Notes under the pieces: generated by a model
Told to the model about the DNA's origin: nothing
Database searches by the model: none
What the model saw: the letters and a program-made list of their open reading frames with translations, nothing else
Translations under genes and position numbers: made by a program
In this document: one piece after another, positions 22,437-34,957 of the stretch
Layout of the letters: every line of letters begins with the position of its first letter
Position numbering within the stretch: the stretch's first letter is position 1
Assembly (NCBI GenBank): GCA_012517065.1
Contig: JAAYVR010000164.1
Span: forward strand, 1 to 44,478
Length of the DNA stretch: 44,478 bases
Source: Verrucomicrobiota bacterium
GTDB taxonomy: Bacteria; Verrucomicrobiota; Verrucomicrobiia; Limisphaerales; J093
Direction of reading: 5' to 3'

Positions 22437-22503
22437 CCTGCATACTTATACCCTGAGCAGTCTGCGAAACAGGTGTCTTCAAGCAACCAAGGAATATGCG
22501 GGC

Positions 22504-22568
22504 CCCGGAAATCTCACCGGAGTGAAGCTTTGGGTGTCTTGGGCTGGTCAAGCGGTAAGATTTCCGGG
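22504..22568 (-). repeat. Family A hairpin element, copy A4
   Basis: This is the longest stem: 22504-22519 pairs with 22553-22568 with one mismatch (C22515/A22557), and the loop is 33 nt (22520-22552) in reverse orientation. It lies 30 nt beyond the stop of the minus-strand gene at 22599. Confidence 0.9.
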
Positions 22569-22598
22569 TTGAGGGGGCTCCGCCTACGAAACCGTCTG

Positions 22599-23270
22599 TC
22601 ACTGCCCTGCCGCTTCCGGCCAGATGAGTGCCCGCAACAGGTCCAGCCACGAGATTTTGGTCTGTTCGGTTTCGACTTCTCGCTTGATCGTTTCAAAATC
22701 AAGCACGGGTGGCGGCGGTGACAATACGATGTCTGCATTCTCAGAAACCCGCTGAAGACCAAGCGAGCCGTCGCCGCTGACGGTAACAATCCACCGCCCC
22801 TCATCAAGACGCCGGTACACCGCCTTCCCCACAGCAGTGGTATTCGTGTCCCAGTTTATCCCGGCGAGACTTGGATCAATCACCGTTCCCGCCTCTGGTG
22901 GCGTGGTGGAATCAAACACACGCCGAATCCAAAGTCGCCCGTCCAGCACAACATAATCCACGTACACTTCCTTGTCCGGCCGACACGAAGTGGGAAACTC
23001 CCGGGTCACACCGTCGGCTGTGCGCACGGCGACCATCACATTGGTTCCCCTGACGCGCAATTCAGTGACAGCGGTGCGGCTGATCGCGCGGTTGTACTCC
23101 TTGCGCAGCCGTTCGTAATCAGCCGCCACGGTCTCGAGTCGTTTTGCGTAAATCCGTGCGCCAACCCGCGCGCGCCCGAAAGCCCAAAGCGCGATCAACG
23201 CCGAGCAGACAACAGCGATCAAGAGCGCGATTTCCAACCATGCGCGCAACTGCTTCGTAATGCTTTCCAT
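22599..23270 (-). CDS. Unrecognised membrane-anchored protein with coiled coil
   Basis: I do not recognise this 223-residue protein. It has one N-terminal membrane helix (about 12-32) and a short helical, probably coiled-coil segment (about 38-62). A beta-rich C-terminal region of about 150 residues includes VYVDYVVLDGRLWIRRVFD and GRWIVTVSGDGSLGL. The anchor plus coiled coil suggests a periplasmic or cytoplasmic domain held at the membrane. ATG 23270 is preferred to GTG 23276. It is bracketed by two family A elements in the same orientation (A4 and A5). Confidence 0.75.
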   Translation of the reverse strand: MESITKQLRAWLEIALLIAVVCSALIALWAFGRARVGARIYAKRLETVAADYERLRKEYNRAISRTAVTELRVRGTNVMVAVRTADGVTREFPTSCRPDKEVYVDYVVLDGRLWIRRVFDSTTPPEAGTVIDPSLAGINWDTNTTAVGKAVYRRLDEGRWIVTVSGDGSLGLQRVSENADIVLSPPPPVLDFETIKREVETEQTKISWLDLLRALIWPEAAGQ

Positions 23271-23427
23271 TCCCACGCTTCAAGTTCGACACGAACCCGC
23301 AGAAACTCACGGATGCCGCAAAACAGTTTCCGTCATCGTTGTTCGCGGCAAACACATTGCCCGCGCCGATGCGTAACTGTGAGCATGGCCACCGGCCGCA
23401 AAGCGTTCAAGACTTTTGCCTTGAGCC

Positions 23428-23487
23428 CGGCAACCTCACCGGATTGAAGGCATGGGTGAATCCGAGGGCTGGCCGGTGATGTTTCCG
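23428..23487 (-). repeat. Family A hairpin element, copy A5
   Basis: Arms 23428-23441 and 23474-23487 pair with two mismatches; the loop is 32 nt. It ends two bases beyond the stop of the SSS symporter gene, as if it formed that transcript's 3' end. Confidence 0.8.
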
Positions 23488-23489
23488 TG

Positions 23490-25301
23490 CTACCGATCCT
23501 GCGGCAAGTACCCGTCGCCCTTGGCGATCCGATCGAACCAGGTGAATTTGAGAATCACCGCACCGGCCACGAGCACTGCGAAAGTGGCGCCAACACGCCC
23601 CCATTGTTTCAGAATAACGTACACAGGCGCAGATACCATTGCGATTTGCCACACAATTCCAACAAGCACATTGAACCAGTCGCGTCCACAGTCGCGATTT
23701 GGCTCGAGCTGAGGCGTCTCAGCGCGGCATTTATCGAGTATTGGCTTCCAGAATCCCCATGGCCTGACAGTGCGGTAAAAGGACTTCAGCACATCCTCCG
23801 GCTCCGGGGCGGTGGCAAGGCAAACAACAACGGAAACGATTGCGCTTATAGCGAGTATTGACATGAACAGATTCACATCTTTCAAGGTTGGCCATAGTCC
23901 CGGGATGACCAGCGCACTTGCTGTACCTGCAGCCATTCCAGCCCAAAAACCATGTCCGTTAAACCGCCACCAATGCCATTTGAGGACGTTCGGAACAACA
24001 AAAGCCGGCACAAGGGCGTTTGCCACCCACTTGGTGACCGAATGCACGTTGAGCGTGGTGTATCCGAAGCCAATCCCCGCAGCGATCACAACAATTGACC
24101 ACACATAACCCCAGCGCACGTAATGCCGCGCCGGTGCGTCTGATCGCACGTATCGCCTGTAGATGTCGTTAACAATGTATGCAACGCCGGAGTTCACCGT
24201 TGACACAAAAGTGCTCATGAACGCCGCAATCAAACCCGCTAGAATGAGCCCTTTGCATCCAACCGGCAGATACTGCGCCACAACTGCGGGCAGCACCTGC
24301 TCGAAATCGACTTTTGCGCCCATCCCGCGCAGTTGGTCGCTGAAGAAAACCATGCCGAGCACGCCAATGCCAGCTATCAGCAGAAACCGCGGCGCAAGGG
24401 ACACAATACACATCACAAGGTTCTCCAACGCCGCTTCCCGCGGATTCCTGGTCGAGAGCACGTGTTGGATGGCGTAATTGGGAGTTGGCCCGGCCATGCT
24501 CACAAGCACTCCTTTGATGAAAAGCATCAAAATCAGAAACCCGAAAAGCTCGTAGCCCTGATCGTGGATCACCTTGGTGAGCGCGGGCATCTTCTCCGAC
24601 CAATCGAGGTCAAGTCGCCAGCCAAAGAACAGATTGTCCCAACCCGCAGGAACCGCCGCCATGACCTGGTCAGGGGTTGTCTTCATCATTGCAACCACGG
24701 CGATGATCACCGCAGCCAGAGTAATTAAGCCAAACTGGATCAAATCGTTCAGAACAACCGAGTACATGCCGCCCAGCACGCAGTATGCGCCGGCAACCAG
24801 CATTATGATTAGTGCGTACGTGTCCGGACTCCATCCGAACGGGAAAAATGGCGCTGCGAACTTGCCCAGTGGCTTAAACGCATAACTCAGGAAACCCACA
24901 ACGCTCACCAGCGCATAAACAACCACGCTCACATACGCCAGCTCGCCGCCAAGTCCTTTGCCGAACCGGGTTCGCATCCACTCAGCCCCGGTGAGCACAT
25001 TCGAGCGGCGCACCCATGTCCCGAGATAAACCATGCGAAAAACCACATTGAATAGCGGCCAAATCCAAAGCAGGAACAGTCCTTTCGCACCGTAAATGTA
25101 AAGCATGGTGACAAACCACATCGTGCCGCCTATGTCAACGCCGCTCGACCCATGCGCCACGCCGATGATCCACCATGGGAGGCTTTTTCCTGCGAGGAAG
25201 TAAGACTCGGAATCTTTGGCGGCCTTCTTTGTCACCCACGCGCCCACAGCCACCATCAAAATCATGTAGGCTACGATGATGGCGATATCGATAACGTGCA
25301 C
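23490..25301 (-). CDS. Sodium:solute symporter (SSS family)
   Basis: This sodium-coupled importer of the SSS family (relatives carry glucose, proline, sialic acid and other solutes) has about 603 residues and 13 or more hydrophobic segments. The first helix (about 3-22) is followed by the typical ESYFLAGKSLPWWIIG stretch and GSSGVDIGGT, a sodium-site region. GTG 25301 is chosen because AAGGA lies just upstream and the first helix begins there; GTG 25340 would add 13 hydrophilic residues. It lies downstream of the Gfo/Idh/MocA gene but behind a terminator, so it is probably transcribed separately. Context suggests a sugar or sugar acid, but the sequence does not fix it. Confidence 0.92.
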   Translation of the reverse strand: MHVIDIAIIVAYMILMVAVGAWVTKKAAKDSESYFLAGKSLPWWIIGVAHGSSGVDIGGTMWFVTMLYIYGAKGLFLLWIWPLFNVVFRMVYLGTWVRRSNVLTGAEWMRTRFGKGLGGELAYVSVVVYALVSVVGFLSYAFKPLGKFAAPFFPFGWSPDTYALIIMLVAGAYCVLGGMYSVVLNDLIQFGLITLAAVIIAVVAMMKTTPDQVMAAVPAGWDNLFFGWRLDLDWSEKMPALTKVIHDQGYELFGFLILMLFIKGVLVSMAGPTPNYAIQHVLSTRNPREAALENLVMCIVSLAPRFLLIAGIGVLGMVFFSDQLRGMGAKVDFEQVLPAVVAQYLPVGCKGLILAGLIAAFMSTFVSTVNSGVAYIVNDIYRRYVRSDAPARHYVRWGYVWSIVVIAAGIGFGYTTLNVHSVTKWVANALVPAFVVPNVLKWHWWRFNGHGFWAGMAAGTASALVIPGLWPTLKDVNLFMSILAISAIVSVVVCLATAPEPEDVLKSFYRTVRPWGFWKPILDKCRAETPQLEPNRDCGRDWFNVLVGIVWQIAMVSAPVYVILKQWGRVGATFAVLVAGAVILKFTWFDRIAKGDGYLPQDR

Positions 25302-25340
25302 AAGATCCTTATCCCGAATGCGCGTTCCGCTGGCAAACAC

Positions 25341-25376
25341 AAAACAAAACAGGCGCGAACATTTGTCCGCGCCTGT
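25341..25376 (-). terminator. Rho-independent terminator of the Gfo/Idh/MocA gene
   Basis: A 9-bp perfect stem (25349-25357 with 25368-25376; CAGGCGCG/CGCGCCTG core) with a 10-nt loop is followed on the minus strand by TTTTGTTTT. It lies 34 nt after the stop of the gene ending at 25410. Confidence 0.85.
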
Positions 25377-25409
25377 CGTGTATAAACAAATTACGGTTGG
25401 CGCTGGTGA

Positions 25410-26801
25410 TCAGTACTCCGTTTTTCTTGTAATGCCCGGCATGGGCACCGGGTAACGCCCGTTGGCATCAGCTTTGAGCGGAGCCGGTGAATCGTCAGTG
25501 AACGTGTCGAGGCCGGGCGCCATTTCATGCGGGCAGTTCAGCATGTCTTCGAATGTGATTTCCTGTCCTGTATGTGCGGCCATGCGGCCCATGGAAGTCA
25601 CAAGGCTCGCTTCGATGCCGCGCTTTGCTTCGTTGTAAGGTTTATCGTTGCGAATGGCGTCCATGAGATCGTCCCACTCGTTTTGGTACGGGTCTTCCTG
25701 GCCGGCTGGGACCTTGGATTCCCACAGCAGATCGGCCCGGCGCGGGTTCTGGCTCTTGTAAATGGCTGATGGCCCGCCGCAGTCGCCGCTGCGTGATGCA
25801 ATCGCCATGCCTTTTGTGCCGTGGATGTAGCTGGAGTAAATTTCAGCGCATCCGGTCATGCAACGCCCGTCGAAAATGAACTTGCTGCCGTCGGCGTAAG
25901 TGTATTCGACCGAGTACACATCCATGTTCTGGTCCACATACGTTTGGCCTTCCGGGCTTGTCCGATAATGCCGTGCGCCGAGGCCCTGGGCTTTGACTGG
26001 CCACGCATTCTTCATCCAACCGAGATGATCGATGATGTGGATGTAGAAATCGCTGTAATTGCCGCCGCTTGCCCAGAGAAAACTGTGGAACCGCCTGATC
26101 TGATACATCAATTCGCTGATACCCGGGGGCTTGGGCAGCGATGAAAAGTATCCAACCGGCCCGTGCATTCGATAACCGCGCTGGAGGATGATCTCGCCGA
26201 GTTCGCCGTCTTGAATGCGTTTTGCGAGCTCTTGGAGTGCGCGGCTGTGCCGTGACATCAGGCCAACGCCCACTTTGAGGTTTTTCCGAACCGACTCCTC
26301 AGCGGTTTCCAACATCCGTTTGCTGGTAGGTCCATCAACGGTGACAGGTTTCTCCATGAAAACGTTGAGGCCCTTGTTAACGGCGTAAGCAAAATGAACC
26401 CACCGAAACGCTGGCGGGGTTGCAAAAATGGCAACATCACCCGGGCGCAAGCAATCCATGGCTTTCTTGTATCCGTCCAATCCGACGAAGCGCCTGTCCT
26501 GCGGCACGTCAACCTTGTCGCCTTTGCCCTTCTGCAGGTTCTCATAACTGCTGGCCAGCCGATCTTCAAAGACGTCCGCCATTGCAACGAGTTTGATCGG
26601 CCCGCCTTTTGTGCTAAGAGCTTGCGCTGCTGCTCCTGTGCCACGCCCGCCACACCCTATGAGGGCCACTTGGATGAGGTCCGACCCGGCAGCGTGCACA
26701 TGCGGGATTGCTACTCCAGCAAGGGCAGACGCCGCGGCGATCTTGGTTGTGTTCTTAATGAATTCCCTTCGAGTTGAAAGTGCAGATTCGTTGTTGTTCA
26801 T
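25410..26801 (-). CDS. Tat-exported Gfo/Idh/MocA family oxidoreductase
   Basis: The 463-residue protein begins with a twin-arginine signal (STRREFIK at 9-16, then an Ala-rich helix, and AHA-type cleavage near 37). A Rossmann NAD(P) site follows (VALIGCGGRG, about 45-54), with the family's EKP motif at 150-152, whose Lys is catalytic. The C-terminal sheet domain has HIIDHLGWMKNAWP, with His residues typical of the active site. Such enzymes oxidise sugars or sugar derivatives; Tat export implies folding with the bound cofactor and action in the periplasm. ATG 26801 starts directly before the Tat signal; the longer frame to 26837 is less likely. Its own terminator follows the stop. Many Verrucomicrobiota and Planctomycetota carry several paralogues. 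Confidence 0.93.
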   Translation of the reverse strand: MNNNESALSTRREFIKNTTKIAAASALAGVAIPHVHAAGSDLIQVALIGCGGRGTGAAAQALSTKGGPIKLVAMADVFEDRLASSYENLQKGKGDKVDVPQDRRFVGLDGYKKAMDCLRPGDVAIFATPPAFRWVHFAYAVNKGLNVFMEKPVTVDGPTSKRMLETAEESVRKNLKVGVGLMSRHSRALQELAKRIQDGELGEIILQRGYRMHGPVGYFSSLPKPPGISELMYQIRRFHSFLWASGGNYSDFYIHIIDHLGWMKNAWPVKAQGLGARHYRTSPEGQTYVDQNMDVYSVEYTYADGSKFIFDGRCMTGCAEIYSSYIHGTKGMAIASRSGDCGGPSAIYKSQNPRRADLLWESKVPAGQEDPYQNEWDDLMDAIRNDKPYNEAKRGIEASLVTSMGRMAAHTGQEITFEDMLNCPHEMAPGLDTFTDDSPAPLKADANGRYPVPMPGITRKTEY

Positions 26802-26900
26802 GGATTCAGGATCATGTCGGGACGGCGAGATTGTCAACGCTATATTTGTACCACACGCACACGCTGATGTCCCTTCTCGCCCCTCCGTGACTGCACGCTC

Positions 26901-29078
26901 TCATAGGTCTGCCGCACAGCGAAAACCCACGTTGGCGCAGCGGTCAATCCGGGGGCCCCATAACAACACCTTTGCAGCGAAATCAGCGCGTTGCGGACCC
27001 TCATCGAAGTACCATTGCGACCCGCCGCGTTTATAAAAGCTGCCACCGCGCAGAATGGCAAATCGCGTTCTGCCGTCACTTCGCTCGCTCTCGGTCCATT
27101 CCCAAACGTTGCCGCACATGTCAAGGCAACCGAACGGCGACCGGCCGCTTGGAAAAGCATCAACAGGCGTAGTGTCGCCGCCTGCGCCGTCGTTGCAACG
27201 CCCCTTCTCCATGGCATCACCCCATGGATAACACCTACCGTCTGGCCCTTGTGCGGCCCATTGCCATTCTTCGTCGGTGGGCAGCCGTTTGCCTGCCCAC
27301 GCAGCATAAGCGCGGGCATCGTCCAAATCGACATAAACGACCGGATGCTGTTCGCGACCCGGGGGCGGCCCGCCACTAACCCAATGCCGAAGGTAGTTCG
27401 TCGGATCAGCAGGTCGATACCCGGTCGCAGAGAGAAACTGGGCGAACTGGGCGTTTGTCACGGGATAAATGTCCATGGCAAAAGGGCGCACCTCCACCGT
27501 TCGCGAAATGATGAGCGGCCCGTGGAGCGACGGGAAACTGGTCGCGAAGTGTGGATGTGTAGAGTCATAAAACCCACATTCACGCACACGAAACGTGGTC
27601 TTCAACTGAATCTGTCCGCCGGGGATTTCCACCATGGCGCGCATGCTCGATCTTCCCGCGGCAACAGCCGAGGGCTTGCGAACTATAACCCGGCGCGATG
27701 GAAACCTCGTGTTCCAGTTCGCCCTGCGCATCAAATCCCTCTGTTCGCGCAAGAACCCACCGAAACCAGCCCCCACGGCTTCCGTCCGCCCTGCGATGAA
27801 ACAGCCGATGCCTCGCGGCGGCAAATCCCCGGCGATCGTCACCTCCGCAGTGCCATGACGCGGTTGACCAACACCGCCGGTGCGCCGCGTCGCCGCCTCG
27901 CGCCCGAGAACGCCATCCCAAACCCGCTCTCCGCTGCGCAAGCTGGCTGAAAACAATTCGCCGCGAACGGCGCTCTCAGACCTGTTGACCAACGTCCACA
28001 ACCGCAAGCCCATTCCTTCCCACAGACTCGCGTACACGTCCGGTTGCAGGGTGGGAACCAGAGGCGTCCAGCCTTCGCCACTGAAAAGATGTGCGAACCT
28101 TCGTTGCAGAGGCAGCATGGAACGAAGAACGGTCTTGTCCCGGTCGCACCATCCGTTCCATGTGCCGAAGATGTTCTCCCAAACCAGAATACCAGCGCCG
28201 TTCATCCATGCGGAGTGCAGTTCTGCGGTATGATCCCGGTCCCAGCGCCTGATCAGGTGCTGCTGATGACCGCGCTCGAACCAACGATTACGTAGAACTC
28301 CGGGAACATGGCTGTCAGGGAACCATTGCGCCCAGCTAAGGTGATGATCGTGAACGCTTGCTAATGGCAAAGCAAGTTCGCTTTCGAGGACCACCCCTGG
28401 CCGAACTGTATCCAGCGCTGCCCGCCATTCGCTTGCGCCGCGGTCGAGTGTGTCGAGAAACACGCCGTCGGCGTCCAAGGCGGCAATCAATTCCGCCATG
28501 ACCACTGGGTCGGCCCGGGTTTCGCGGCGTGTGTGCGTGTCCCACGGGTTGTAATCGAGGAAAACGCGAACGCCGGCTTTGTGAAGTTGGTTCACGGCTT
28601 CGCGCAGGGCTTGCAAGCCGCCCGGCTGTTCACGGTAGAAATCGAATTGATTGCGCGCGTCCAGGCCAATGCGCGGATAAGCGTGCCAGAGCACGACGCT
28701 GTCAAAGCCGCCAAACTCCTTTCGTGCATGAGCCAGAAACCTGGCAACATGATATCGTCCCGCGCGAACGTCGCAGAACAACTCATCGTTCAGCATAACA
28801 AAACCGCACGCAAAATTGCGCGTGGCCCATGAAAACTCGGGCCGTTCATAAAGTGCAGACGAATACTGCATGTCACGCCTGACCGATTCGCGCCATGCGA
28901 ACAATCGTTGGCGGAATTCGGGCCAGAGACCGGAATCCGACGGTGCGGGAATGAGATTTTCTTCAGGGGCGAACTTCCATGCTCCGGATGCCGCACTGGC
29001 ATTGGAACGAAAGCCGAGTCCACCCGCCAAAGCAGCACCCGCAGTCAATCCAATCCATTCACGCCGAGATAACAACAT
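26901..29078 (-). CDS. Tat-exported fusion: TIM-barrel (glycosidase-like) + SUMF1/FGE-like domain
   Basis: The 725-residue product starts with a Tat signal (LSRREWIG at 3-10). Residues about 50-430 look like a glycoside-hydrolase-type barrel plus sheet domain: GVRVFLDYNPWDTH (169-182), DADGVFLDTLD (202-212), VVLESELALP (229-238) and WALVNRS-like sheet near 361. Residues about 483-725 form a SUMF1/formylglycine-generating-enzyme-like domain: PVTNAQFAQFL (539-549), RLPTDEEWQWAAQG (598-611), CGNVWEWTESE (655-665) and RGGSF (677-681). The paired catalytic cysteines of true FGE, expected soon after RGGS, are absent (FYKRGGSQWYFDEG instead), so the domain is probably a binding or structural module. 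ATG 29078 is the first ATG. It lies upstream of the Gfo/Idh gene, with 99 bp between them, so co-transcription is possible. Confidence 0.82.
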   Translation of the reverse strand: MLLSRREWIGLTAGAALAGGLGFRSNASAASGAWKFAPEENLIPAPSDSGLWPEFRQRLFAWRESVRRDMQYSSALYERPEFSWATRNFACGFVMLNDELFCDVRAGRYHVARFLAHARKEFGGFDSVVLWHAYPRIGLDARNQFDFYREQPGGLQALREAVNQLHKAGVRVFLDYNPWDTHTRRETRADPVVMAELIAALDADGVFLDTLDRGASEWRAALDTVRPGVVLESELALPLASVHDHHLSWAQWFPDSHVPGVLRNRWFERGHQQHLIRRWDRDHTAELHSAWMNGAGILVWENIFGTWNGWCDRDKTVLRSMLPLQRRFAHLFSGEGWTPLVPTLQPDVYASLWEGMGLRLWTLVNRSESAVRGELFSASLRSGERVWDGVLGREAATRRTGGVGQPRHGTAEVTIAGDLPPRGIGCFIAGRTEAVGAGFGGFLREQRDLMRRANWNTRFPSRRVIVRKPSAVAAGRSSMRAMVEIPGGQIQLKTTFRVRECGFYDSTHPHFATSFPSLHGPLIISRTVEVRPFAMDIYPVTNAQFAQFLSATGYRPADPTNYLRHWVSGGPPPGREQHPVVYVDLDDARAYAAWAGKRLPTDEEWQWAAQGPDGRCYPWGDAMEKGRCNDGAGGDTTPVDAFPSGRSPFGCLDMCGNVWEWTESERSDGRTRFAILRGGSFYKRGGSQWYFDEGPQRADFAAKVLLWGPRIDRCANVGFRCAADL

Positions 29079-29162
29079 CGGAAAGATTTCAACTCCTCCC
29101 CCGCGAATCGGCAACTTGGATTTGCCGGGAGAAAAAATGCGCGCCAGACAGGCAAGCGGACT

Positions 29163-29580
29163 CTCGTGGACGTGATGTTCAGTCTAGCCAGCACAAAGCG
29201 GTTTGTCCGGTTCCTGCTGCCGCAGGAGATTTGCGATCTCTGGTGGCTGAAACTATTGCTCCGCTGGCTGGACGTGATCCCCATCCCGCCCGGGTCGCAG
29301 CCGCGCGAATTGCTTGGGGCGCTGCACGCAGCCTGAAATGCCATCCGGCAAGCAGAGGTCGTTGCTGTGTTTGCCGAGAAGCACGTTTCGCGCATTGGCG
29401 TTTTGCTGCCATTTCGACGTGAGTTCGAGCGGATCATGGAAGGCGTGGACGCACCCATCATGCCTGCCTGTTTGGGCCGCGTTTGGGGCAGTGTTCTCAG
29501 CCTTCAGTCGGGCCGTTTCTTTTGGAAAGTACCGCAACGCCTGCCTTACCCGGTAACATTCAGCTTCCGCCACGCACACC
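29163..29580 (+). pseudogene. Fragment of Aas-type lysophospholipid acyltransferase
   Basis: Frame 29163 onward reads DVMFSLASTKRFVRFLLP, then RWLDVIPIPPG, an in-frame TGA (29334-29336), then NAIRQAEVV, FAEKHVSRIGVLLPFRR, ERIMEGVDAPIMPACL and GRFFWKVPQRLPYPVT. These are successive conserved blocks of the PlsC-type acyltransferase domain in Aas-like fused proteins. The N-terminal transporter part, the NHxxxxD catalytic motif and everything after the VTFSF block are gone. FAEG has become FAEK. The stop and both missing ends show it is dead. Bases 29581-29740 hold no gene that I can support. Confidence 0.75.
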
Positions 29581-29740
29581 CAAGATCTGATTCAGATTGC
29601 CGTGACACACGTCCGTGGCATACTCGGACCGCGATCTGTTTGTTGTGGGCCGGTCAGCACCATGGAAGTCGCGCAGCTGACGGTAAACCTTGGCAAATTG
29701 ATTCGCAGGCACGGAAACCTTCAAAAGCCAAAACTGGAAA

Positions 29741-31021
29741 GTGAAACCAACTGACCTGCGCGGCATCTTGCAGTATGTGCCGCATTTTCGCGAAAAAGCG
29801 TTTGTGATCAGCCTCGATGGCGGCATCGTCGCGGACGAGAACTTTGCCAACATCGTGCTCGACATTGCTGTCCTGCGTTCTTTGAACATTCGCGTGGTTA
29901 TCGTTCACGGCGCTTCCGCACAAATCCGCGCCATGGCAGAACAACAGGGCCTGACGCCATCCGATTTCGACGGCACCGGTGTCACCGATGCCGCCACCCT
30001 AAACCTTGCTCTCACTGCCGCAAGCCGTGTCACCCAGGAGATTCTCGAAGGTCTTGCAACCCAGGACCTCCGAGCCGCTTGCCCAAACGCCATCGTCGCC
30101 CATCCAATGGGCATAATCCACGGCGTCGATCACCTGTTCACTGGCAAGGTCGAGCGCGTCGATTCCGAGCTTATCCATGCTCTTCTTCAGCAAGGCATTA
30201 TTCCGGTGATTCCGCCTCTCGGATTTGACGGCGAAGGCCGAACTTATCGTGTCAATTCCGATGCCGTCGCCGTTGCCGTTGCCGAAGCACTCAAAGCCGT
30301 CAAGGTTATCTACATCACCACTTACGAGGGCCTGTTCAAACAAGGCCGATTGTTCCATCAAATACTTGCGAGTGACCTCGAACAATGGCTGGCCCAAAAC
30401 CGCGACGATTTCCAGCCGTCCACACTCTCAAAAGCAATTCACGCCGCCGCCGCATGCCGCGCCGGCATCCCCAGAGTCCATATCATCGATGGCAGAGTCG
30501 ATGAGGCACTCTTAACCGAGGTCTTCTCCAACGAGGGCATCGGCACACTGGTCTATGCAAATGAATACCAACAAATCCGACGCGCCCTCAAAAAGGATAT
30601 TCCCAACATCCTCAAGCTCATCCGCCCAGCAATGGAAACCGACGAGCTGATGCGCCGTACCCGCGCCAGCATCGAAAAATCACTCAGCGATTTCTACTTG
30701 TTCGAAATAGACCAAAACCCGGTCGGCTGCGTCGCCTTACACGTGTACCCGGAAACTGGCAAAGGCGAGATCGCCTGCCTCTGCGTCAAGCCCTCCCACG
30801 AAAATCAGGGCATAGGGCGAAAACTCGTTCAGTACGCCGAAAACAAGGCACGCGAACTCGGCTTGCGCGAACTCATAGCTCTCTCGACTCAATCATTCAT
30901 GTTCTTCAAATCCAAAGCCGGTTTCCAAGAAGGAACACCCGACGATCTCCCAGCCGTCCGCCGCGAACGCTACGAACATAGCGGCCGCAAATCGAAAGTC
31001 CTCATAAAGAAACTACAGTGA
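29741..31021 (+). CDS. argA: Amino-acid N-acetyltransferase (N-acetylglutamate synthase)
   Basis: ArgA acetylates glutamate with acetyl-CoA, the first step of arginine synthesis, and is normally feedback-inhibited by arginine. The 426-residue protein has an N-terminal amino-acid-kinase-like domain (about 1-285; FVISLDGGIV, VVIVHGAS, YRVNSDAVAVAVA, YITTYEG) and a C-terminal GNAT domain (about 286-426; acetyl-CoA loop around SHENQGIGRKL). The two-domain layout and length match classical ArgA rather than ArgB or short ArgA. The start is GTG 29741, which gives the family-typical MKPTDLR opening; the Shine-Dalgarno sequence is weak. The stop overlaps the next gene's GTG by 4 bp. Confidence 0.92.
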   Translation: MKPTDLRGILQYVPHFREKAFVISLDGGIVADENFANIVLDIAVLRSLNIRVVIVHGASAQIRAMAEQQGLTPSDFDGTGVTDAATLNLALTAASRVTQEILEGLATQDLRAACPNAIVAHPMGIIHGVDHLFTGKVERVDSELIHALLQQGIIPVIPPLGFDGEGRTYRVNSDAVAVAVAEALKAVKVIYITTYEGLFKQGRLFHQILASDLEQWLAQNRDDFQPSTLSKAIHAAAACRAGIPRVHIIDGRVDEALLTEVFSNEGIGTLVYANEYQQIRRALKKDIPNILKLIRPAMETDELMRRTRASIEKSLSDFYLFEIDQNPVGCVALHVYPETGKGEIACLCVKPSHENQGIGRKLVQYAENKARELGLRELIALSTQSFMFFKSKAGFQEGTPDDLPAVRRERYEHSGRKSKVLIKKLQ

Positions 31022-31605
31022 CCAGCCCAGACCATAACACCACTCACCTGCCCTGCCGACAGTTGATCCGGCGATGGTTGCTGGCGTGTCGCCAACTCCA
31101 GATTCTCCCAACAAGACACGTGTTGCTGATCAGCGTTCGTCGGCAGCGAATGTGGTGGCTCCGCAAACTAAACACCGCTTCGTCTCGCCCCACTTACCGC
31201 CTCGTGCGCGATTTCACAGTGTCAACCTCAAAATTCGGCACCGGCCAGGCCGAAGCATCAAACCGCACGCCGCTCGGGCTCCACAGAATCGCCGCGAAAA
31301 TCGGCGCAGGTTGGCCAGTCGGAACCGCTTTCGTCGAGCGCCAACCAATCGGATTCGTCTGGCAAGGCCAACCTTCAGCATCAATAGCCCACCGCATCCT
31401 CTGGCTCGAAGGGCTCGAACCCGGCTTTAACTCTGGCGCTGGCTGCGATTCCCGCCAGCGATTCATCTACATCCACGGGGTCGCCGACGAAACCAAGCTT
31501 GGCCAACCCAACTCCCATGGGTGCATACACATGCTCGCATCTGACCTCTTGCGCCTATTCGATTACATCGAAGCCGCAAGCATGGTCTGGATCGATGCCA
31601 ATTGA
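31018..31605 (+). CDS. L,D-transpeptidase (YkuD domain)
   Basis: This enzyme family makes 3-3 cross-links in peptidoglycan or attaches proteins to it, outside the cytoplasm. The 195-residue product carries the YkuD catalytic motif: H153 in IYIHG and SHGCIHM at 166-172, with C169 as nucleophile. The N-terminal part (1-50) is rich in Arg and Trp with only weak hydrophobicity, so an export signal is not clear. The start is a GTG overlapping the argA stop (GTGA), suggesting coupled translation although the functions are unrelated. Confidence 0.88.
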   Translation: MTSPDHNTTHLPCRQLIRRWLLACRQLQILPTRHVLLISVRRQRMWWLRKLNTASSRPTYRLVRDFTVSTSKFGTGQAEASNRTPLGLHRIAAKIGAGWPVGTAFVERQPIGFVWQGQPSASIAHRILWLEGLEPGFNSGAGCDSRQRFIYIHGVADETKLGQPNSHGCIHMLASDLLRLFDYIEAASMVWIDAN

Positions 31606-31691: not shown

Positions 31692-31803
31692 CGTGCTGTG
31701 ACTTACCCAACTAAATGGGGTGTTGCGGCCGGCCTGTCACCAACCCCCCATCCAGTGTGGGTTTGACGGATTTCTCAACGTTTGCCCATGCCGGCCCGGC
31801 AAC

Positions 31804-31835
31804 GTTACAACAATGTAACCTGACTGTAACAGTCA
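31804..31835 (+). promoter_or_regulatory. Two adjacent inverted repeats upstream of nrdJ
   Basis: GTTACA-N4-TGTAAC (31804-31819) is directly followed by TGACTG-TAA-CAGTCA (31821-31835), ending 17 nt before the start codon. Both are perfect, share TGTAAC, and look like operator sites or small hairpins over the translation start. They do not match the NrdR box that I know. Confidence 0.5.
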
Positions 31836-31852
31836 CAGACCAGTTTAATGCC

Positions 31853-34800
31853 ATGACCCAGGCCAATGCCCAATTAGTTTCCGCTCCTGCGCAGCCAAGC
31901 CGCAAACCCAAGCGCCATGACCAATCCGTTAGCCCTGACACGCCCCAAAACGCCGCCGGGCAAAAGCTGCTGCGCATCGAGAGGGTGTTCAGTTCGCCAA
32001 CTGTTAACCCCTTCGACGAAGTCGAATGGGAAAAGCGCACAGCCGAAATCACCGACGACACCGGCAAAGCAATCTTCAGACAGGACGGCGTCGAAGTGCC
32101 AAAGAGCTGGTCCCACCTCGCCACCAAGGTCGTCTGCTCGAAGTATTTCTACGGCGATCCACAGAAACCCGACGAACGCGAGTACTCGGTCAGACAGCTC
32201 GTTCACCGCGTCGCCCGAACGATAGCTGACTGGGGCGTCCAAGATGGTTATTTCAGTGCCGAAGACGGCGAAGTGTTTTACCAGGAATTGGCATGGCTTT
32301 GCTTGAACCAGTACGGCGCTTTCAATTCCCCGGTATGGTTCAACGTCGGGCTGTACCACCAGTACCGCGTAGGCACAAATTCAGCCCGCGGTAATTGGCA
32401 TTACAACCGGGAGAAGGGAACCGCTGAACGTACTCCGACACAATACGAACATCCCCAAGCAAGCGCCTGTTTCATCCAAAGTGTCGAAGACAACATGGAG
32501 AGCATCATGCAACTCGCGTTCAGCGAAGCCATGCTCTTCAAGTACGGGTCGGGCACCGGCACAGACCTTACCCCAATCAGGTCATCCAAAGAAAAGCTCA
32601 GTGGCGGCGGCAGACCCAGCGGGCCATTGAGCTTTCTCAAAGTCTATGACCAGGTCGCAAACGTCGTCAAATCGGGCGGGAAAACACGGCGCGCGGCAAA
32701 AATGAACACACTCCGCGATTGGCACGGGGACATCGAGGAGTTTATAGAAGCAAAAGAAAAAGAAGAGCGGAAAGCATGGGCGCTCATCGAGCAGGGTTAC
32801 GACGGCTCGATGAATGGTGAAGCCTACAGCTCCGTAATGTACCAAAACGAAAACCTGTCCGTCCGAGTCAGCGACGAGTTTATGCAGGCCGCGATCGAAG
32901 GGCGCGAATGGTGGACACGATCCGTCACCACCGGCCAGCCACTCGAGAAGAAGGACGCAGCAAAACTGCTCTACAAGATCGCTGAAGGCACATGGGTCTG
33001 CGGTGACCCCGGCATGCAATACGACGGCGCCATCCAGAAATGGCATACTTGCAAGGGGACTGAACCCATCCACTCGACAAACCCATGCAGCGAGTATGTG
33101 TTCATAAACAACACCGCTTGCAACCTCGCTTCTCTGAATCTCATCAAGTTCCGCAAACCCGATGGCACTTTCGACGTCGAACGATTCAAGGCTGCCGTCC
33201 GCATATTCATCACTGCCCAGGAAATCCTCGTTGACAACGCCAGCTACCCGACCCAAATCATCGCCGAAAACTCACACATCTTCCGCACGCTCGGCCTCGG
33301 CTACGCAAACCTCGGATCGCTGATCATGAGTTTCGGGCTGCCGTATGACTCCGACGAAGCCCGCGCGCTGACCGGCGCAATCACCGCTATCATGACCGGC
33401 CACGCTTACGAGCAGTCCGCTCAAATGGCGTCCATTCTCGGCCCATTCCAAGGATACCACGACGCCCGTTGCGCCCATGTCCAAAACCCGGCCGCAAAAG
33501 ACAACGTCGAATCCATGCTCGGCGTCATCAAACTCCACCGACAGGCCGTTGAAGCAATCACCCCAAGCACCGACTTCGCCTACCTCAAAGAGGAAGCCCG
33601 GAAATGCTGGGACCGCGCGCTCGAACTCGGCCAACGTTTCGGTTTCCGCAACGCACAAGTCACCGCCCTTGCACCAACGGGCACAATCGCGTTCCAAATG
33701 GATTGCGACACCACCGGAATCGAGCCCGACATCGCACTCGTGAAATACAAGGTCCTCGCCGGCGGCGGGTCGCTCGTGATCGCAAACAAAACTGTCCCCG
33801 ATGCACTCCGTCGCCTCGGATACAACTCCGATGAAATAGACCGGATCGTCGCCCACATCGAAAAGTTCAACACAATCGAAGACGTCGAGGAAAACGGCAA
33901 AGTCATCAAAAGCGGCTTGAAACCCGAACATCTGCCGGTTTTCGATTGCGCCTTCAGACCAAAACGCGGCAAGCGCTCGATCCATTACATGGCGCACCTC
34001 AAGATGATGGCCGCAGCTCAGCCGTTCATCAGCGGCGGCATCTCGAAAACAATCAACATGCCCAACGAATGTACCGTCGAGGACATCCGCAACGCTTACG
34101 TCCAAGCGTGGCAAATGGGCCTCAAGTGCGTCGCAATCTATCGGGACGGCTCGAAACGCTCACAGCCCCTCAACACTCAACGCGTCACGCCAGGTTCCTC
34201 GGCGCAGACACAGGAACTCGAAGCGCTCCGAGCGCGTGTCGCAGAGCTCGAAGCCGAAGTTACCAAGCTCCGCGCGCAGGTTGGCAAACCGATCCGCCGC
34301 CGGCTCCCCGACACACGCAGGGCCGTGAATCACAAATTCAATATCGCAGGCCATGACGGTTATCTGAATGTCGGGCTGTTCGATGACGGCCAGCCGGGTG
34401 AATTGTTCATTACCATGGCCAAAGAAGGCTCGACCATCGGCGGTTTGATGGACACTGTCGCCACACTCACCAGCATCGCCCTCCAGTATGGAGTGCCCCT
34501 CGAAGCGCTGGTCAGGAAATTCAGCCACCAACGCTTCGAACCAAGCGGTGTCACAAACAACAAGGAGATCAGGAACGCTTCATCAATCATCGATTACATC
34601 TTCAGATGGTTGGCACTCGAGTTCATACCCGGCTACCGCGAGGAACACTCTCAAAACCACCGCCAGCAAGAACTCCCAATCCCGGGCCTCCAGGAAGAAA
34701 TCAAAAAGCGCATCAACAGGCCCGTGCCCGAGCTGCCAATCGAGCCGGATGCTGAACTGCCCAAGACGCAAGACCAACAGCAAAACACCGCAGTTCCCGC

Positions 34801-34957
34801 CTCGAATACGTCCCAAAGCGGTCGCGACCAAAATCCGTCGTTCGCTTTTGTCAACCAGCTCGACGCGCCACTTTGCACGAACTGCGGACAGGTCACCGTC
34901 CGCGCAGGCAGTTGTTACACTTGCCCAAACTGCTTTACTAGTCAGGGCTGCAGTTGA
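31853..34957 (+). CDS. nrdJ: Adenosylcobalamin-dependent ribonucleotide reductase (class II)
   Basis: NrdJ reduces ribonucleotides to deoxyribonucleotides using adenosylcobalamin, independent of oxygen. The 1034-residue protein shows QASACFIQS (C206) and the active-site NPCSE (410-414) with C423 in the following TACNLASLN stretch. It also has the barrel motif PTGTIAFQMDCDTTG, a coiled-coil linker (LEALRARVAELEAEV), a TSCPD-type domain (DGYLNVGLFDDG) and C-terminal CxxC pairs (CTNCGQ, CPNC). No N-terminal ATP-cone is seen. ATG 31853 is preferred: the longer frame to 31715 contains the inverted repeats. sucC follows after 3 bp, so nrdJ-sucC-sucD probably form one operon. Confidence 0.96.
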   Translation: MTQANAQLVSAPAQPSRKPKRHDQSVSPDTPQNAAGQKLLRIERVFSSPTVNPFDEVEWEKRTAEITDDTGKAIFRQDGVEVPKSWSHLATKVVCSKYFYGDPQKPDEREYSVRQLVHRVARTIADWGVQDGYFSAEDGEVFYQELAWLCLNQYGAFNSPVWFNVGLYHQYRVGTNSARGNWHYNREKGTAERTPTQYEHPQASACFIQSVEDNMESIMQLAFSEAMLFKYGSGTGTDLTPIRSSKEKLSGGGRPSGPLSFLKVYDQVANVVKSGGKTRRAAKMNTLRDWHGDIEEFIEAKEKEERKAWALIEQGYDGSMNGEAYSSVMYQNENLSVRVSDEFMQAAIEGREWWTRSVTTGQPLEKKDAAKLLYKIAEGTWVCGDPGMQYDGAIQKWHTCKGTEPIHSTNPCSEYVFINNTACNLASLNLIKFRKPDGTFDVERFKAAVRIFITAQEILVDNASYPTQIIAENSHIFRTLGLGYANLGSLIMSFGLPYDSDEARALTGAITAIMTGHAYEQSAQMASILGPFQGYHDARCAHVQNPAAKDNVESMLGVIKLHRQAVEAITPSTDFAYLKEEARKCWDRALELGQRFGFRNAQVTALAPTGTIAFQMDCDTTGIEPDIALVKYKVLAGGGSLVIANKTVPDALRRLGYNSDEIDRIVAHIEKFNTIEDVEENGKVIKSGLKPEHLPVFDCAFRPKRGKRSIHYMAHLKMMAAAQPFISGGISKTINMPNECTVEDIRNAYVQAWQMGLKCVAIYRDGSKRSQPLNTQRVTPGSSAQTQELEALRARVAELEAEVTKLRAQVGKPIRRRLPDTRRAVNHKFNIAGHDGYLNVGLFDDGQPGELFITMAKEGSTIGGLMDTVATLTSIALQYGVPLEALVRKFSHQRFEPSGVTNNKEIRNASSIIDYIFRWLALEFIPGYREEHSQNHRQQELPIPGLQEEIKKRINRPVPELPIEPDAELPKTQDQQQNTAVPASNTSQSGRDQNPSFAFVNQLDAPLCTNCGQVTVRAGSCYTCPNCFTSQGCS

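Follow-up and report, generated by a model that had tools for sequence, protein, structure and literature searches.

A minus-strand gene encodes a 725-residue protein that is probably an exported retaining glycosidase, from a family that has yet to be described and is akin to DUF6259, joined to a C-terminal SUMF1-fold domain that would serve as a non-catalytic module. The gene lies in the window, which here means the whole 44,478-nucleotide stretch of Verrucomicrobiota DNA that was analysed. Fusions of the same barrel to the same domain recur in several phyla, and in all of those collected the C-terminal domain lacks the cysteine pair of the formylglycine-generating enzyme (FGE).

Architecture and export

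The features of the gene and its product are as follows.

26901..29078, minus strand: coding sequence, 725 amino acids plus stop, comprising export signal, barrel, beta-sandwich and SUMF1/FGE-fold domain (open reading frame; full-length relatives)
28989..29078, minus strand: twin-arginine type signal, residues 1-30, SRREWIG and then a hydrophobic stretch (sequence; RR motif by eye in other members)
28059..28853, minus strand: (beta/alpha)8 barrel, residues about 76-340 (AlphaFold2 model; PDB matches)
28452..28454, minus strand: Asp209, putative nucleophile of catalysis, immediately following strand 4, aligned to DUF6259 Asp399
28377..28379, minus strand: Glu234, putative general acid/base, immediately following strand 5, aligned to DUF6259 Glu447
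28176..28178, minus strand: Glu301 of the WEN motif, which follows strand 8; specific to this family, a possible substrate contact, not conserved in DUF6259
27774..28046, minus strand: beta-sandwich after the barrel, residues about 345-435 (model; GH13 matches extend over it up to about residue 435)
26904..27644, minus strand: SUMF1/FGE-fold domain, residues 479-725 (Pfam PF03781; AlphaFold2 model; structural matches)
27015..27032, minus strand: loop that in FGE carries the active-site cysteine pair, here with K683 and Q688 (6muj reference loop)

The gene starts with an ATG at 29078 and its stop codon ends at 26901. From N- to C-terminus the product consists of a twin-arginine type signal, a (beta/alpha)8 barrel with a beta-sandwich, and the SUMF1/FGE-fold domain; FGE-sulfatase (PF03781) is its sole Pfam match above cut-off. 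Family-wide counts refer to 38 distinct intact fusion proteins, left after duplicate removal from 54 open reading frames with a barrel score above 150 bits, a barrel span above 350 of 414 positions and a SUMF1 score above 130 bits.

The N-terminus, MLLSRREWIGLTAGAALAGGLGF, reads by eye as a signal of the twin-arginine type. SRREWIG is followed by a stretch with a hydropathy of 1.55, just under the threshold of 1.6 set in our own script. Inspection by eye finds RR-x-[F/L/W/C] in 17 of the 38 proteins, the script scores 11 as Sec-like, and Pfam TAT_signal yields weak matches in 4 of 19 members. Tat export, proposed in the earlier note, is likely for this protein on the strength of the motif, and the motif is common among its relatives; as a universal trait of the family it does not hold.

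A SUMF1/FGE-fold domain without the FGE cysteines

PF03781 covers residues 525-722 with 143.4 bits against a cut-off of 23.3, and all 19 members scanned match it within an E limit of 1, the best of them at 1.1e-45. The domain was of low confidence in a first AlphaFold2 model, which used an alignment of 14 rows (A2; six further relatives left out). Residues 479-725 modelled alone, from an alignment of 50 rows (A6; 14 family members and 36 other SUMF1 segments), reach a mean pLDDT of 82, with one poor stretch at model residues 205-222, equivalent to protein residues 683-700, the former cysteine loop and beyond. The structures closest to this model are CalU17 (Z 24.7), SUMF2 (1y4j, Z 24.4) and EgtB (Z 23.7), and FGEs score 22.9-23.5 (S. 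coelicolor FGE, 2q17, 23.2). By sequence the closest solved protein is SUMF2, or pFGE (E 2.4e-37), another FGE-fold protein whose loop has no cysteine pair; SUMF2 stands alone, however, whereas the window domain forms part of an exported bacterial protein that also has a barrel. NCBIfam equivalogs remain far under their cut-offs: EgtB at 66.4 against 360 bits, SenA at 71.1 against 420 and the OvoA N-terminal model at 34.5 against 400, with GldK and PvdO also far below.

FGE relies on active-site cysteines at positions 336/341 in the human enzyme and 272/277 in that of S. coelicolor and uses copper (PMC4505483). A motif search found no true FGE among the relatives, so an alignment with a PDB entry supplied the loop for reference: the Streptomyces protein 6muj reads RGGSYLCHDSYC. 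The window protein has RGGSFYKRGGSQ in its place, with K683 and Q688 where the two cysteines would be. Neither position holds Cys in any of the 38 relatives (0/38); the residues seen include R, Q and K at the first, while the second has, among others, H, G, A and I. Since no member retains the pair, its loss is, judged from the aligned sequences, ancestral and predates the spread of the family, and a single degenerate copy is excluded. The SUMF1 scaffold without FGE cysteines described in the earlier note is thus borne out by profile score, modelled fold and loop residues, and homologues that keep the cysteines, which would have left this copy a lone exception, did not turn up.

The fold, the scaffold motifs, a Z of about 23 and a score over the Pfam cut-off are shared with FGE, but besides the cysteine pair the family differs in having AAQG where FGE has AARG; 33 of the 36 members aligned there carry the Gln. 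Relative to 140 other SUMF1 domains, the residues specific to the fusion include E500-C501-G502, R589, Q610, D668, W689 and K703; the rows compared were picked by similarity and only 5-17 of them extend past residue 685, so W689 and K703 are weak. Q610 of the fusion family is Arg in 129 of 138 other SUMF1 domains. The cysteines C501, C628, C651, C655 and C714 are all present in 15 of the 38 proteins and all absent from 6. A disulfide reading, by which exported members keep these cysteines and cytosolic ones lose them, fits the relatives L095-L098 and was rejected, since L099 and L123 look Sec-like yet do not have them.

Both parts of the protein are under purifying selection, and it is stronger on the SUMF1 part than on the barrel. 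Against a metagenome-assembled genome (MAG) of the same genus, dN/dS is 0.138 for codons 1-433 (433 codons, signal and barrel) and 0.056 for codons 569-725 (157 codons, SUMF1 part), as calculated with our own Nei-Gojobori script from one relative on two contigs that leave residues 434-568 uncovered. With a ratio lower than that of the barrel, the SUMF1 part is functional and not in decay.

The barrel, its acidic pair and the link to DUF6259

The 14-row model has pLDDT values mostly of 70-96 over residues 44-450, lower in loops. DSSP assigns strands to residues 90-95, 127-131, 171-176, 205-208, 230-233, 247-251, 272-276 and 296-300, after which comes the beta-sandwich. The best structural matches in the PDB are GH13 entries, the top three rows having Z about 21 over 331-335 residues; among these matches are 1jf5 (Z 21.0, 333 residues, 3.8 A) and 1j0j (Z 20.9, 335 residues, 3.7 A). 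GH129 (5opq and 8rzk, Z 18.3; 5wzp, Z 18.2) and GH27 (1uas, Z 18.1) also match. The glycosidase-like barrel suggested in the earlier note is therefore predicted with good confidence, its best structural matches are glycosidases, and the outcome of no barrel did not occur. CD98hc, a GH13 fold without activity, also matches (7df1, Z 18.7; 8g0m), so the fold alone is no proof of catalysis.

At the level of sequence the barrel stands far from these families, with 7-14% identity in the listed structural matches. Its profile retrieves nothing usable from the sequences of solved structures (best the designed protein 2l82, E 1.3e-4; maltogenic amylase, E 0.16), and Pfam holds no barrel family for the window protein or 19 members. 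No Pfam glycosidase exceeds its cut-off on the window protein (GHL6 appears only at E 0.24) in a scan that may miss remote members.

The candidate catalytic residues are almost invariant. Position 209 is Asp in 37 of 38 fusion proteins and Glu in the remaining one, E234 occurs in 38 and E301 in 37; D140, Q144, W179, D204, W249, R278 and W300 are invariant in all 38. Asp on strand 4 with Glu on strand 5 is the layout of GH13, GH101 and GH129, and the same layout appears here, with strand positions read from the DSSP of the model. By analogy with GH13-like enzymes, the barrel would therefore be expected to act by a retaining mechanism. In GH13 an arginine stands before the nucleophile; before D209 it is missing and the sequence is FLD. 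The (beta/alpha)8 barrel followed by a beta-sandwich is common to the window protein and GH13 (Z 18-21), GH101, GH129 and GH27 (about 18 for GH129 and GH27), but the low identity, the lack of a Pfam match above cut-off and the missing GH13 arginine set it apart from these families. In PMC8106489, the catalytic domains of GH101 and GH129 are described as alike and GH101 as resembling GH13.

Two findings go beyond the earlier note. One is the strong purifying selection on the SUMF1 part; the other is that the barrel is, on profile evidence, a distant relative of DUF6259. Searches with the barrel profile return a weaker second population, at about 17-90 bits and mostly over barrel positions 246-389, and all eight of its members that were scanned match DUF6259 (PF19773). 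Profile-profile comparison of the barrel alignment A3 (17 of 19 rows) with 16 DUF6259 open reading frames gives 99.9% and E 3.2e-34 over 322 columns (2.2e-34 on repetition), and the match continues into the beta-sandwich. The paired columns include D204-D394, D209-D399, E234-E447 and W179-W340; in the DUF6259 alignment D399 occurs in 16 of 16 and E447 in 15 of 16, with one gap. An acidic pair conserved across homologues, raised in the earlier note, is therefore present, and it reaches into DUF6259. The two families also differ. PF19773 matches neither the window protein nor any of 19 members within an E limit of 1, DUF6259 proteins carry no SUMF1 domain in the stretches examined, and D140, Q144, W249, R278, W300 and E301 of the fusion family are not common to DUF6259. 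No NCBIfam match was found in 16 of 16 DUF6259 members, and a literature search for DUF6259 found no paper.

The genome of the window itself encodes four PF19773 matches, three of them over cut-off, on contigs C184, C281, C203 and C182 (L233-L236), none with a SUMF1 domain beside it in the stretches examined. L234, the best aligned of the four, has the motifs YIDQ and TTE.

Distribution of the fusion

A search of genome contigs returned 79 loci. Full-length or nearly full-length relatives (L015-L022, L024, L025, L033 and L036), at 35-55% over the protein, come from records of Acidobacteria, Planctomycetota/Planctomycetes, Bryobacteraceae, Nitrospira, Phycisphaerales/Phycisphaerae, Verrucomicrobia and a Spirochaetia bin. 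Two contigs of one Verrucomicrobiota MAG (L014 and L023) stand at 89% and 96% to the window protein, and a scan of the phylum to which the window belongs (387 genomes) yielded six more full-length relatives (L094-L099). Barrel profile A3 detects this family, or proteins distantly akin to it, in 18 of the 146 nearest relatives; in the phylum of L016's genome it does so in 14 of 343 genomes, and in that of the window in 22 of 387. Strong hits (>150 bits) occur in 16, 9 and 7 genomes, respectively. The family is present in 10 of 14 genomes of the window's own taxonomic family, own genome included. Viral contigs contributed two relatives, L123 (full length) and L124 (partial), and on this evidence the fusion gene is no typical phage gene.

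Barrel and SUMF1 domain occur together in every complete strong hit, a rule judged from a scan of all open reading frames of the loci from L125 on and not from the 38, which were chosen as fused. Strong barrel hits without SUMF1 in the same frame are cut by a contig end (L133, L154) or by the end of the locus (L157). In L135 the gene is split by a stop and its second part carries SUMF1; L165 holds only the barrel, and a different contig (L172) carries the remainder, including SUMF1. In L140/L143 the gene is divided over two frames, whereas a short open reading frame in L141 combines a piece of the barrel with SUMF1. The fusion, for which the earlier note suggested a search elsewhere, thus occurs outside this genome, and 38 distinct intact examples are more than chance would give. 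A literature search that covered few subscription journals found no publication on the architecture.

In a tree of the 38 proteins, the window protein groups with L129, which comes from the same taxonomic family (100/99). A separate set (100/100), likewise without the extra cysteines, unites L095-L098 with L099, L123 and L153. Neither the Planctomycetota nor the Acidobacteriota rows form one side of a branch, and horizontal spread of the fusion gene is possible from a tree in which few rows carry names.

Just upstream of the fusion gene in an Acidobacteria locus (L015:5749-6567) lies an incomplete further copy whose sequence corresponds to residues 95-173 of the barrel, and further pieces occur on other contigs of the same genome (G531). 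Nitrospira loci have more stand-alone SUMF1-fold open reading frames a few kilobases from the fusion gene (L025, 11423-12403 and the region 1-816; L018; L019; numbered on the reverse strand).

Genomic context

Two genes lie directly downstream of the fusion gene.

25410..26837, minus strand: Gfo/Idh/MocA-like oxidoreductase with its own twin-arginine signal, a possible operon partner (clusters with a GFO_IDH_MocA protein of L020; no Pfam hit at 1e-6)
23490..25340, minus strand: sodium:solute symporter (SSF) (Pfam)

Farther downstream on the same strand are an ABC ATPase and a BPD_transp_2 permease. A sigma-70 scan of 22500-29800, uninformative for this bacterial group, gave no promoter-like site. 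Elsewhere in the window are a B12-dependent (Class II) ribonucleotide reductase that includes a TSCPD domain (31715-34957), an amino-acid kinase plus GNAT protein that is presumably ArgA-like (29741-31021) and an L,D-transpeptidase (31018-31605).

Across 33 regions (12 named loci, 20 more and the window) there is no conserved operon, and no neighbour recurs in more than six. The recurrent ones are a sulfatase cluster (6), a GH127-type gene (5), PfkB kinase (4), Gfo/Idh/MocA (4), GH116 (2) and GH29 (2). These neighbours fit glycan use and single out no substrate. The GH116 genes beside the fusion gene, L033:323-4072 (1249 aa) and L036:8223-11951 (1242 aa), encode a cysteine-rich Tat-type N-terminus; the former is accompanied by DUF2961 and the latter by genes for a fucose-isomerase-like protein and an FGGY kinase. 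L036 also has an MFS transporter. These two are possibly loci for L-sugars.

In the window's genome there are 13 matches to PF03781 and 16 to sulfatases. None of the 13 PF03781 loci shows the FGE cysteine pair by motif, in a search that detected a control FGE string, and at the DNA level the FGE loop pattern has one match in this genome, which runs into a stop.

Possible functions

The reading that we consider probable is that the protein is exported and that its barrel would cleave a glycosidic bond with retention, Asp209 at the end of strand 4 acting as nucleophile and Glu234 at the end of strand 5 as acid/base. The C-terminal domain would have given up the generation of formylglycine ahead of the family's spread, and would have been kept as a non-catalytic module that may hold the glycan, dimerise or brace the barrel; carbohydrate binding or dimer formation is a guess. 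Model and sequence suggest hydrolytic catalysis by the barrel, for which alpha-specificity, like the substrate itself, would be a matter of inference.

It is rather unlikely that both domains are pseudoenzymes, making the protein a non-catalytic glycan-binding or scaffold protein. CD98hc scores as well as active enzymes do and the GH13 arginine is absent, but D209 and E234 are kept in 37 and 38 of the 38 proteins and in DUF6259, in the pattern usual for an active site, and W179, W249, R278 and E301 are conserved within the family. Nor is the SUMF1-fold domain itself expected to catalyse a reaction at some other active site, with the sugar product or a partner protein as its target. EgtB, PvdO and CalU17 do reuse the fold, this part evolves more slowly than the barrel, and some of the fusion-specific residues E500, R589, Q610, D668, W689 and K703 lie near the former FGE loop. 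The EgtB equivalog score is nonetheless far short, the erratic occurrence of the five cysteines leaves no invariant Cys-based metal site, and the comparison set is thin at the C-terminus, so that such an activity is improbable.

SUMF2 pairs with SUMF1, and the domain could by the same token be a sulfatase helper that docks the glycosidase to sulfatases on the same glycan. Its closest PDB sequence match is SUMF2, likewise devoid of the pair, and sulfatases are found both in six of the neighbourhoods and in the window's genome. They are common in such genomes anyway, however, and 27 of the 33 regions, the window included, have no sulfatase cluster nearby, which leaves this role very improbable. 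Hardly credible is a decaying leftover of an FGE: the cysteines are lost, but the domain is kept in all intact members, has many invariant residues and shows the lower dN/dS of the two parts.

Implications for PF03781 and DUF6259

In sulfatase-rich PVC bacteria, PF03781 genes are counted as sulfatase activators. One paper reports strict anaerobes with 20 and 11 such genes and speculates that the genes are inactive or have an alternate function (PMC6388578). The fusion family offers a specific example in which an alternate role can be tested, namely a conserved module on a probable glycosidase, and the uncharacterised DUF6259 gains a predicted catalytic pair. A bolder proposal, which we hold to be possible though unlikely, is that the protein represents a new family of glycoside hydrolases whose SUMF1-fold domain has turned into a module dedicated to glycan recognition or to a composite active site, with W689, K703, D712 and R713 at the centre of a rebuilt former copper site. 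Were this general, some of the surplus FGE-like genes of PVC bacteria that degrade polysaccharides would encode modules of carbohydrate enzymes and not sulfatase activators.
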